NCBI RefSeq assembly: GCF_000730285.1
Contig: NZ_CP007174.1
Coordinates: 2,852,001-2,916,000 of the forward strand
Length of the DNA: 64,000 bases
From: Candidatus Nitrososphaera evergladensis SR1
GTDB lineage: Archaea; Thermoproteota; Nitrososphaeria; Nitrososphaerales; Nitrososphaeraceae
Reading direction: 5' to 3'
The stretch's first letter is position 1; every line of letters begins with the position of its first letter. A program made the position numbers and the translations under genes. Positions 26,064-34,930 of this stretch are shown here, one piece after another. The notes beneath the pieces are model-generated. The model did no database searches. It was not told where the DNA came from and worked only from the letters and a program-made list of their open reading frames with translations.

Positions 26064-26327
26064 TTATACATCTTTACCTGGGATACTCGCTGGCGTAGAT
26101 GTTCGACTGATTCTAGTAATTCTTGCTACCTTGCTAGGTAGATGTAAATTGCGCGATCTTGTTCTCAATCGATTTCCACAGCAAGGACAGAGCCTGCCTT
26201 CGTATTTGAGAAATGCTTCGCACATGGTACATCTTTTTGAGCCATTGGCATAATACTTTCTGCAGAGATCTGCCTCGTATTGTTTGCATAGGTTTTTGCA
26301 AGGTCCGCCAGTACCTGCTTCTTCTAT
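26064..26327 (-). CDS. Zinc-finger protein of the thaumarchaeal CPCCG-RLRT type, possible ATA start
   Basis: One minus-strand frame encodes GPCKNLCKQYEADL, YYANGSKRCTMCEAFL, then YEGRLCPCCGNRLRTRSRN. The order C-x3-C, C-x2-C, C-P-C-C-G and R-L-R-T-R-x-R-N is that of a small zinc protein found in many copies in thaumarchaea. No ATG, GTG or TTG is available between the upstream TAG and the first motif. A codon ATA at 26325-26327 (ATA GAA GAA GCA) lies exactly where a leaderless start is expected, about 26 nt after the TATA box ATTATAAAAG, so either ATA is used or an ATG was lost. The C-terminal extension after RSRN is longer than usual. Three tandem promoter-hairpin units lie just upstream. Confidence 0.6.
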   Translation of the reverse strand: MEEAGTGGPCKNLCKQYEADLCRKYYANGSKRCTMCEAFLKYEGRLCPCCGNRLRTRSRNLHLPSKVARITRISRTSTPASIPGKDV

Positions 26328-26334
26328 TCTCTAT

Positions 26335-26777
26335 GTACAGAGAATTCTTTTATAATATTCACGTTTACTATGAATTGGCGGTTTCAACAACATAGCAGCC
26401 TCTCCGCCGGACAAAATCCATTGAGCTTGGGTTCTATCACGCCCGGCGGAGTATTGAATCGAGTCTATTTCCTTTTGCGTCTGTTTGCTATGTACACAAG
26501 AATCTTTTATTTTGGATTTTGTAATTTCGATTCACACACAGACAACTTTGTGTATCCTCCCTGCCGGTTGTTCTTCTCCCTTGGCTTGGGTTTATCACAC
26601 AGCCGGCGGGGTTTCAAATCAGTGTGTTCTTTTGCATGTATTTGTCACGTACATACGATGATTTTATCAAAGCAAGGGTCATTAATCATTATTTACACTC
26701 TCGTCTAGTCGTGGCAGAGGCTTCGCTGGTTGTTTTCTCTTAGGCTTGGGGTAAATGCATATACGTCCGGCGGGGCC
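26335..26777 (-). repeat. Three tandem ~158-bp promoter-and-hairpin units
   Basis: Three diverged units lie head-to-tail. On the minus strand each carries ATAAAA(G/T), an 8-nt gap and GTAC(A/G)T; these boxes end near 26338, 26493 and 26649. Each unit also has a GC-rich stem: 26402-26410 with 26443-26451 (CTCCGCCGG/CCGGCGGAG), 26559-26567 with 26603-26611, and 26719-26729 with 26767-26777. Stem bases differ among copies but stay paired through G-T wobbles, and the 32-37-nt loops share GGCTTGGG on the plus strand. The period is 157 and 160 bp. The first TATA box serves the zinc-finger gene at 26064, so these look like duplicated promoters with a structured leader, or tandem small RNAs. Confidence 0.7.
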
Positions 26778-27384: not shown

Positions 27385-29382
27385 ATGTGTGGAATAGCCG
27401 GAGTACTTGGAAAAAGTGAAAATAAGAAACAGAAGAAAACCAATGTCGTCCCTCTGGTCAAGTCAATGTTGTCATGTATGGTTCACCGGGGACCTGATGG
27501 TGCAGGAATAGCAGCAGATGATGAAGTAATAATAAATACAAACTCGATAGCGAGTCTCGCTGCTTACAAGATAAGGGCCAGTAGCAGCGTAGTTGGCCAC
27601 AATAGACTTGCAATCGTTGGAGGCACTACCTGTGGCTCGCAGCCCTTTGTAAGCTGTGATAAAAGACTCGTGCTTGAGCATAATGGAGAGATATACAACT
27701 ACAAACTTCTTCGAAAGAAACTTGAAAACTGCCACAACTTTAAAACGCTCACAGATAGCGAGGTAATCGTCCATCTTTTGGAGGATAATTTGAAGACGAT
27801 CGAAGAGCAGAGTGAAGAAAAAGAAAGAGAAAGACGAGAGAAAAAAACATCGGAGAAGGAGGAAAATAGTAAAGCGAAAATACTTGAATTAGAAGCGACA
27901 GCATCAGAAGAAGCGGGCGCAATTCTCTTGAAGGCAATTCAGAAGACTATTGCCGAGCTTGACGGCGTGTACGCCCTTGTAATCAGAGACACAAAGACTG
28001 GCTACACTGCACTCGTGAGGGACAGACTGGGCGTGCGGCAGCTATATTACGCGCAGACTGACAAGTTTCTGGCATTTGCGTCAGAGCTGAAGGCACTGTG
28101 GAAGATAGGCATCAATGAACAGATTGAAAGAGTGATGCCCTGCACTGCCGTAATGATTTCCCCAGGTTGCGAAAAAATAGAGACTCACGCGGTTGCAAGT
28201 ATCATGTCCGATATTGTTCTCGTAGCCGCTGATGACAATAGACGATGGAAAGAACGACGAAAGAAAAAGAAGGTGGGAGGAGGACGGCGAAGTAATGATA
28301 ATAACAATAACTATTGGAAGCCACGCTATTACCGTACAATGCGCAAGTCTCTCAGAGAGTATCGCTTGGCACTCTTAAAATCAATGCAAAAGCGCACGCA
28401 AGACTTTGAAAGGATTGGCATTATTTTCTCCGGAGGCATTGACAGCGTCATGATTGCACACCTTGCAAAGCAAATGGTCCCTAACATCATCTGCTACACC
28501 GGTGGAATCAAGGGCTCTAGCGACATCGAATATGCCCGCCAAATAGCAAAGGAGCTGGACTTGGATCTTCGGGTAAATGAAATGACGCGGCAAGACATTG
28601 AAGAACTTGTGCCAGAGATCATAACTGTCATCGAGGATAACAATGCAGGCCAGGTGGAGGTGGCCTTGCCTGTGTATGCGGCCGTAGAACTCGCACATAA
28701 GGATGGCATAAGGGTGATGCTATCCGGCCAAGCAGCGGATGAGCTGTTTGGAGGCTACCCGTGGTACGCAAAGGTGGTAGAGCGAGAAGGCTATGACAAG
28801 CTACGCGAGCACATGACAGAAGACCTGTTTCTTTTGTACAAAGAAACACTGGAGCGCGAGGACAAGATTACGATGGCTCACAGCGTTGAACTGCGAGTGC
28901 CTTTTCTGGATCCTGAGGTTGTGAATGTGGCAATGAGGATCAATCCTTGCTTCAATGTAAAGGGCGGTGACGATATATTTGGCAAGCATGTGCACAGAGA
29001 ACTTGCAGTAGCCATGGGCATACCGCGGAATATTGCATATCGAGTCAAAGAAGCAGCTCAACATGGCTCTGGAACCCACGGTGCGCTTGATGCTATAGCC
29101 AGACGCAGTGGATTTGCTTCTTCTGATGTTCCGGATTCATATCTTGAAGAACTGCGCGGCAGGGAAAGGATTGGCAGCTCACAAAGGTATGGCTACTTAT
29201 TTGGAAACAAAAGAAGTTGGGTAGCGGAGCCACATGTCCAGATGTATCTGGACAAGATGGCAAGAACTGTGCTGCCAAACTTTGATACTCTCGTTCGGTC
29301 GTCAGTATCGTCATCATCAATGACGCCGCTGGCGCTTGTTAAGGAGAAAGCAGGAAGCAGGAATTCTGCAAAGTTTCCATAG
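27385..29382 (+). CDS. asnB: Glutamine-hydrolysing asparagine synthetase family protein
   Basis: A 665-residue class II amidotransferase. The start is ATG 27385 because Cys2 (MCGIAGV) must become the N-terminal nucleophile; in-frame codons upstream are not conserved. The glutaminase domain shows RGPDG, GHNRLAI, NGEIYN and TDSEV. The synthetase domain has the ATP pyrophosphatase loop SGGIDS near residue 350 and LSGQAADELFGGY. It is longer than usual because of two charged, low-complexity inserts: residues about 140-170 (Glu/Lys-rich, within the glutaminase domain) and about 285-310 (Arg/Lys then Asn-rich, in the linker). It makes asparagine or amidates a related substrate; the inserts make a strict AsnB role less certain. 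Confidence 0.85.
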   Translation: MCGIAGVLGKSENKKQKKTNVVPLVKSMLSCMVHRGPDGAGIAADDEVIINTNSIASLAAYKIRASSSVVGHNRLAIVGGTTCGSQPFVSCDKRLVLEHNGEIYNYKLLRKKLENCHNFKTLTDSEVIVHLLEDNLKTIEEQSEEKERERREKKTSEKEENSKAKILELEATASEEAGAILLKAIQKTIAELDGVYALVIRDTKTGYTALVRDRLGVRQLYYAQTDKFLAFASELKALWKIGINEQIERVMPCTAVMISPGCEKIETHAVASIMSDIVLVAADDNRRWKERRKKKKVGGGRRSNDNNNNYWKPRYYRTMRKSLREYRLALLKSMQKRTQDFERIGIIFSGGIDSVMIAHLAKQMVPNIICYTGGIKGSSDIEYARQIAKELDLDLRVNEMTRQDIEELVPEIITVIEDNNAGQVEVALPVYAAVELAHKDGIRVMLSGQAADELFGGYPWYAKVVEREGYDKLREHMTEDLFLLYKETLEREDKITMAHSVELRVPFLDPEVVNVAMRINPCFNVKGGDDIFGKHVHRELAVAMGIPRNIAYRVKEAAQHGSGTHGALDAIARRSGFASSDVPDSYLEELRGRERIGSSQRYGYLFGNKRSWVAEPHVQMYLDKMARTVLPNFDTLVRSSVSSSSMTPLALVKEKAGSRNSAKFP

Positions 29383-29944: not shown

Positions 29945-30953
29945 ATGCTTAATCAAGGCGCATCATACGAATTTCGCATTTAACACTACATGTTTCTAAT
30001 GCAATCGTGTGTAATTATTAGCACGATTTAGAACCTAGGTAATTGGTGATAATCGTAATCGTGGATAATTAAGTGGACAAGCATTTCGTAGATGCCAATC
30101 CACGTTGCAGGAATTGGTGTGTGTATTTACGACTTCTTGGTCTATCTGGTTTCTGGAGCCGAGTAGGTTCTCTACTTTGTCATTGCTCTAAGCGAAGGTC
30201 TAACAGCAAACACTTGCGCCAGAGCAGGAAAAGGCATGACGACGGCGACGTTTCACCATATGAGCATTTACCACAATAACAAGGTCGTCGAGATGTCGAG
30301 GCTAGGAACGCAACTTTAACTTTGCCATCATCAGCCGCGCTATCCCATCATCATCATTATTATTGTCCTGCTCTGGCTCTTTGCCCTATACGCGTTAGTA
30401 TAAAGCCATTCCTGTTTTCCGGTGGATTATATAGAAAGTAAAGCTAGAAGAATTGTTTCATTGGATAATAGTTGTGTTAGAACAGGCAACACCGACATCA
30501 CGACCAGCTACTGTGACTCATGCTTGGGACGGCGTGAGTATGCAACTCAATTTGAGCATATTTGTTGGGAGCTTGAGCAGGCAGATGTCGCGCCAAGCCG
30601 TACCCCCATGTGCCCTGTCATGACGCCAGAAGTTATCCTAGGAACTTTATAAAAAATCTGGAGAGTTCTTAGATTATTTCGTTGCTGAGAAAGTAGTTAC
30701 GAGAATACTGGCCCATCTCGGTCAACTCGAGTCACATATGCCGATATGAACGAAGCGGACAGAGATGGGCCAATGGCAAGTGGGTAGCTATGCCACATCC
30801 TTCAATCATGTGACTTTCATTAAAGCACGAGGTGTACAGTGCATGGCTTATTTGACTCGGTTCAAAGGCAGCAAGCGTATTGCGCCCCATTCTCACCGCT
30901 TATGTATTAGAATTACATAGAACAGATATAGGAGACGAGATACTACCCCATAA
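29945..30953. other. Gene-poor stretch with possible relics
   Basis: No intact gene. Between 30125 and 30320 one plus-strand frame reads IYDFLVYLVSGAE, a TAG, then VLYFVIALSEGLTANT and continues to TAA, which looks like a decayed membrane protein. A 76-codon frame at 30422-30652 contains YCDSCLGRREY but is otherwise featureless. An 11-bp inverted repeat is listed separately at 30709. Confidence 0.35.
30709..30772. repeat. 11-bp perfect inverted repeat with shared core
   Basis: TGGCCCATCTC (30709-30719) and its exact complement GAGATGGGCCA (30762-30772) enclose a 42-nt loop. Within the loop, CGATATGAACGAAGCGGA (30742-30759), and before the stem GAATACTGG, match 20778-20805, where the two blocks are adjacent. 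The element may be a small RNA or a mobile-element end present in two forms. Confidence 0.45.
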
Positions 30954-34254: not shown

Positions 34255-34399
34255 CGCAACTTAATGTACCACCGACAAATCTTTTAATTTTCCTCTTTTT
34301 GATACTATGGCGGATGACTCGCCATTTACAGGAACTTACCAATAGGACATTGCTCGCAGGATCTCAATTACATACACGCCGGTCCTTGAAAGCTTGAGT

Positions 34400-34452
34400 G
34401 CTCCGCCGGATCAGAAAGCACATGAAGCGCAATTAAAGTGCTCTGGCGGAGC
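34400..34452. repeat. Dispersed member of the CCGCCGG hairpin family
   Basis: GCTCCGCCGG (34400-34409) pairs over 10 bp with CTGGCGGAGC (34443-34452), one G-T wobble, around a 33-nt loop. Stem bases and loop length match the three hairpins at 26402, 26559 and 26719. It lies upstream of the minus-strand zinc gene at 33955, as those lie upstream of the zinc gene at 26064. Confidence 0.55.
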
Positions 34453-34930
34453 TCTATGTTATGTCTTGCATTGATTACCTTACATAGGCTGTCATAAAAT
34501 GATCTTGTGTACACAGCAAACAAATGCAAAGCCAAAATAATGGATGTATTTCTGGATCAGAAGCATTATAGCTCGATCATCAGATGATATAACATGCATT
34601 TGAGCATTTCCGACTTCAAGCTTGATCGGCACGTTATGCACCACTAGGCATGTCCTTAGATACTTGCTTCTGCTGCTCGTCCTCTCATCCACCACTAATC
34701 AAATCCTCAGGCCGAGAGTCTTGCATGTTTCTTTTTCTGCGTCCCTAAACTGACGCTCGGGCAATCTAGGCATCCTGCGAAAGAAGTTTGCCGCCCCAAG
34801 CCCAAATACTAAGGGATGGTTTTTGCAGCCACGACGGCACACTGGAATATTGCCTTATTGACATAATTTACCGAATACTCCGTCACGTTGAGCCAATGAT
34901 TATTATTTTTACATTAGGAAAATATGCCAA
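34453..34930. other. Intergenic region
   Basis: About 480 bases with no gene, repeat or RNA structure I can support. Confidence 0.5.

Follow-up and report, generated by a model that had tools for sequence, protein, structure and literature searches.

A dispersed family of probable small RNA genes with its own promoter box in Nitrososphaera

In Methanosarcina mazei, the intergenic small RNA sRNA154 is transcribed from a promoter controlled by NrpR, and canonical promoters of leaderless mRNAs in archaea place the TATA element approx. 26-30 nt before the start. Both resemble a locus of Candidatus Nitrososphaera evergladensis SR1, studied here in a window of 64,000 nt (the whole stretch analysed; NZ_CP007174.1, positions 2,852,001 to 2,916,000). 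Like sRNA154, three repeats in this window would combine a dedicated promoter, in which a site of regulator type adjoins the TATA box, with a short structured intergenic RNA, but lineage and box are different, many copies occur per genome, stems are wholly divergent, tandem arrays exist, and both regulator and transcript are putative. Compared with canonical leaderless promoters, the distance from TATA to ATG behind the box is the same as in amoA promoters of this genus, whereas an extra conserved box is found directly upstream of the TATA element.

Like the archaeal families in Rfam (C/D and H/ACA sRNAs, riboswitches and others), the units would be short structured archaeal RNAs. At the gathering threshold, Rfam 15 returned no family for the units from the window or 16 unit loci, only tRNAs and one fluoride riboswitch (RF01734; L141 5410-5490, plus strand, contig 10 of genome G012), which is unrelated to the units; C/D box sRNA matches were absent from the same sequences. 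H/ACA sRNAs were considered and rejected, as an ACA directly 3' of the stem occurs in 1 of 27 cases and the tails begin with ATC, CTC, AAT etc. A literature search, with subscription journals mostly outside its scope, found no paper on small RNAs or the box in Nitrososphaera. These searches support an earlier note on this DNA, which knew of no described element of this kind. The units are probably a new small RNA family with a promoter class of its own, judging from their sequences.

The tandem array and its dispersed copies

The three direct copies reported by the earlier note are in register at 26314, 26471 and 26628; the repeat itself is confirmed, with a measured spacing of 157 bp instead of about 158 bp. 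Several of its other readings hold as well: each unit has ATAAAA(G/T), 8 nt and GTAC(A/G)T on the minus strand, ATAAAA being the reverse complement of plus-strand TTTTAT; the GC-rich stems, given as 9-11 bp, comprise 9, 9 (core, extendable to 13) and 11 bp in units 1, 2 and 3; and CTTGGG is the common core of all three loops (units 2 and 3 have GGCTTGGG, unit 1 has AGCTTGGG). Coordinates are listed in Table 1.

Table 1. Positions of the units and of associated genes (window coordinates unless a genome or locus is named)
Feature	Position	Strand	Remarks
Unit 1 promoter-like box, degenerate, CTTCTTCTATTCTCTATGTACAG	26318..26340	+	aligned with other boxes
Unit 1 TATA-like TTTTAT	26348..26353	+	alignment A4
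Unit 1 predicted RNA start	~26375-26379	+	spacing as for leaderless genes preceded by this box
Unit 1 hairpin CTCCGCCGG...CCGGCGGAG	26402..26451	+	9 bp stem
Unit 2 box TTTTGCGTCTGTTTGCTATGTACAC	26473..26497	+	
Unit 2 TATA-like TTTTAT	26505..26510	+	predicted RNA start ~26532-26536
Unit 2 hairpin CCCTGCCGGTTGT...ACAGCCGGCGGGG	26559..26611	+	
Unit 3 box TTTTGCATGTATTTGTCACGTACAT	26630..26654	+	
Unit 3 TATA-like TTTTAT	26662..26667	+	predicted RNA start ~26689-26693
Unit 3 hairpin GGCTTCGCTGG...CCGGCGGGGCC	26719..26777	+	11 bp; three G.U pairs on plus strand only
Further unit, hairpin, stem ATTGGCCCATCTCTGTC...GACCGAGATGGGCCAGT	30707..30774	-	
Same unit, box and TATA-like AAATAAGCCATGCACTGTACACCTCGTGCTTTAA	30820..30853	-	R3 match, E=0.0056
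Further unit, hairpin	34397..34455	-	R1 match, E=1.9e-12
Same unit, box and TTTTAT TTTGCATTTGTTTGCTGTGTACACAAGATCATTTTAT	34494..34530	-	
Second amoA copies	G014:C15:158749-158973 (L222); G007:C152:1395-1619 (L223); G012:C3:29021-29245 (L224)		
Small cysteine-rich zinc-finger genes near boxes	26064-26327	-	
	L083 4913-5248	+	
	G000:C1 176907-177134, 152214-152393; G015:C1 2101103-2101315; G012:C3 28245-28636		
A8 loci	L266 (G032:C8), L202, L206, L142, L214, L211		

The array is not the only occurrence, since two more units lie in the window and many elsewhere. When the complete array was compared with other DNA by similarity, a single true further copy emerged, in the same genome (G000); a match in G035 (L002) was discarded as chance similarity in AT-rich coding sequence. 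Pattern searches built from the copies located units at 301.6, 1752.5, 2886.5, 786.0 and 150.3 kb of G000. Two covariance models, R1 for the hairpin and R2 for the entire unit, added 2451.5 kb, and the search of relatives with such models, which the earlier note had proposed, yielded units in G015, G012, G007 and G014. Matches at L089, L090, L091 and L145 were dropped by eye, having no box or stem. In total, G000 has at least a dozen units, and more are present in related Nitrososphaera genomes. The box alone, detected by pattern or by a sequence model of it (R3, E<=2), occurs at 20 places in G000, 15 in G015, 14 in G014, 12 in G012 and 6 in G007, the weakest being unsure; neither method gave a convincing box in G011, and the pattern gave zero control matches in 101 genomes. 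An exact box scan of 84,980 species hit Nitrososphaera MAGs only, plus one record taken as chance, and seven exact box-core matches in viral contigs are about the chance level. Matches outside the genus, at family level, are borderline, with one convincing case in G032 (L266) before a leaderless gene of the A8 family (see below). Apparently, the units belong to a larger, undescribed family in these soil ammonia-oxidising archaea, and arrays like the present one would have arisen by tandem duplication.

Hairpin conservation and the transcribed strand

A strong hairpin is found downstream of 33 of 53 boxes, compared to upstream of 7 of 53 and in 11% of random windows. The fraction with a downstream hairpin is somewhat inflated, since some of the copies used to build the box model carry hairpins themselves, but new boxes found by the model alone (G000 755250 and 2882819, G014 157212) also bear hairpins. 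Strand-neutral stem finding detected 36 stems, 29 of which begin +36 to +58 nt from the box end; by sequence alone, the units thus have their own box and TATA promoter at a fixed distance before the hairpin. Stems comprise 9-17 bp and loops 13-37 nt, and the stem sequences form groups (CTCCGCCGG, CATCTCYGCCG, CCTGCYCC).

The earlier observation that stems differ yet stay paired is borne out by covariation in three groups, each beyond the slid controls. MAFFT misplaced the stems when long flanks were included; trimmed flanks were used. In these small alignments, 8 cells changed on both sides within group A4 (3/500 shuffles), cells changed on both sides gave 7/500 shuffles in A6 and A7, and slid-partner controls scored far below all three groups. 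Over the 36 stems, transition-type oppositions were scored in a strand-neutral way; read in the direction of the box, 33 are G.U and 10 are A.C (p=3e-4). Covariation and this asymmetry together support the selection on an RNA stem that had been suggested. Since G.U exceed A.C in box orientation, the RNA of units 1-3 is assigned to the plus strand of the window. The G-T wobbles described for the repeats are real in units 2 and 3, where the plus strand has T in the 5' arm and G in the 3' arm, but they can form only if the RNA is read from the plus strand; in the minus-strand reading of the earlier note, they become A.C mismatches. Its choice of strand is likewise not supported by the position of the TATA-like element as compared to leaderless genes or by the fixed order of box and hairpin, which indicate plus as the wobbles do.

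Short motifs were also scored. Loops with CTTC, TTCTC or TTTCC number 13 of 27 (6.2 expected) and CAGWYA is enriched on the 5' side, both motifs having been chosen after looking; a loop Y-tract of 6 is not enriched. TTTT within 14 nt after the stem, as at an intrinsic terminator, is only weakly enriched (6/27 vs 3.0 expected, p=0.036).

The box, its leaderless genes and a candidate regulator

The box exists in two forms, TTGCAATGCAnTGTACAC and TTTGCATCTGTTTGCTGTGTAYAC, with the first half-site displaced by 5 bp between them. The half-sites, TGCA/TGTA, are separated by 5 bp or, in the other form, by 10 and 5 bp. Approx. 7-9 nt further on lies a TATA-like TTATA or TTTTAT. The box is a probable regulator site. 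Among boxes without a positioned hairpin, 8 of 26 have an ATG-started frame of at least 60 codons at +18 to +42, a distance found for 3.8% of random positions and for 0 of 27 hairpin boxes; this difference independently supports an RNA on the box strand. Products of genes at this distance include a CBS protein, a cysteine-rich protein and a small membrane protein (MGKINGENVAGAAF...) that recurs in three genomes; in G014, a second copy of amoA (Pfam Archaeal_AmoA) is also placed in this way. For this amoA copy, TATA and ATG are approx. 30 nt apart, as in canonical amoA promoters. The canonical amoA promoters lack the box, and a role as general amo promoter was therefore rejected. Three genomes have a second amoA beside the canonical one, each adjoining a box. 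This box is divergent in G012 and G007, where a remnant resembling the start of amoA (GTGGTTTGGCTAAGAC) is found within the reverse unit.

As the box stands beside TATA in approx. 10-20 units per genome, a single regulator seems likely. Genes of a conserved protein family, A8, for which Pfam has no match, are located behind the box in five genomes of two genera: G000, G015, G012 (two), G014 and G032. Its position makes A8 a candidate which could be the box regulator and regulate itself; Pfam and PDB sequence searches gave no support for DNA binding by A8.

Probable small RNA genes and alternative readings

Based on strand bias, covariation and conservation from box to hairpin end, we regard the three repeats as putative tandem genes for small non-coding RNAs, each with a dedicated box and TATA promoter (probability approx. 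0.68), an option the earlier note had offered. The RNA would start approx. 25-30 nt after TTTTAT/TTATA on the plus strand of the window. The stem is located approx. 10-30 nt past this start according to the TATA-to-hairpin spacing, and the transcript would comprise approx. 60-95 nt: a short unpaired 5' segment, then a stable hairpin of 9-17 bp with a loop of 13-37 nt. Orthologous loci fit discrete RNAs of about this size: units at G015 2102.5 kb and G014 157.2 kb are conserved from the box to the stem end (CCCTCCA) and diverge after, and the same applies to G000 2451.5 kb and G015 2203.3 kb up to the hairpin end.

The hairpin might instead be part of the leader of the next same-strand gene, acting in cis as attenuator or stabiliser, and the same gene type does follow in two species at G015 2102466/G014 157212, G015 2203318/G000 2451506 and G000 758618/G015 343931. 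However, conservation stops at the hairpin in two of these three ortholog pairs, the genes after 758618/343931 and 2451506/2203318 have a TATA-like element of their own approx. 30 nt before the start codon, and units 1-3 have no coding frame between them. A cis-acting leader or riboswitch would always have a same-strand gene directly downstream, which the units do not: next genes are convergent or distant at c785, c1752, v1645 and c301, and a unit facing a convergent gene is therefore not the leader of that gene. Small RNA genes are preferred since conservation ends at the hairpin and some genes are convergent; a leader is an unlikely general explanation, although such a role is possible at some loci where a same-strand gene follows. 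Still less probable is a DNA element that makes no RNA, its palindrome serving protein binding or recombination (REP, an IS200/IS605-like end or a small mobile element). Multiple copies, clustering in places and the tandem array would suit it, as would the adjoining asnB copy being specific to G000, but the strand-specific G.U bias, wholly different stems which stay paired, use of the box by leaderless genes and retention of units at orthologous loci all speak against it. That gene (27385-29382, plus strand) encodes an asnB-like glutamine-dependent asparagine synthetase and is an extra paralog; among seven genomes checked, a close copy of it occurs in G000 only.

The other reading of the earlier note, in which a multiplied minus-strand promoter and a structured leader serve the zinc-finger frame at 26064, seems very improbable. 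ATAAAA and the upstream end of this frame are indeed separated by 26-27 nt, and zinc-finger genes are found within 2 kb of three of nine box loci in G000 (0.24 expected, p=0.0014). Against it, the wobbles pair on the other strand, some copies (c785, c150) have a changed ATAAAA or none, and most units have no zinc-finger gene nearby. Nor is it supported that unit 1 supplies the TATA box of this frame, as ATG, GTG and TTG are all absent from the expected place beside the unit. The frame belongs to a multi-copy family (13 members in G000), far wider in distribution than the box, and the proximity is a notable association, but not the promoter relation that was proposed; the frame at 26064 may still make a second, divergent use of the TATA-like sequence. 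The zinc-finger genes adjoining unit 1 and c785 may be truncated, for no normal start codon is found close to their domain.

Returning to the putative small RNAs, a few leaderless mRNAs would likewise be transcribed from promoters of the box class, one of them from the second amoA copy of a relative. Co-regulation of the RNAs with these genes is probable, as is an action in trans via the loop or the 5' segment. More tentatively, and with considerable doubt, one regulator binding the TGCA/TGTA box might activate approx. 5-12 hairpin sRNAs per genome together with a few leaderless mRNAs, among them the second amoA and its own gene (candidate A8), forming an undescribed regulon.

In putative RNA genes of this kind, promoter and fold are retained although the sequence of the stem changes entirely, and searches with a single sequence miss them. 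The shared, searchable box provides testable loci in the cultivated N. viennensis, linked to named genes, including the extra amoA in relatives. Much of the nitrification in soil is due to ammonia-oxidising archaea, and control by small RNAs is little known in them; if the proposed regulon exists, the RNAs would be the trans-acting arm of an ammonia or stress response in these organisms.
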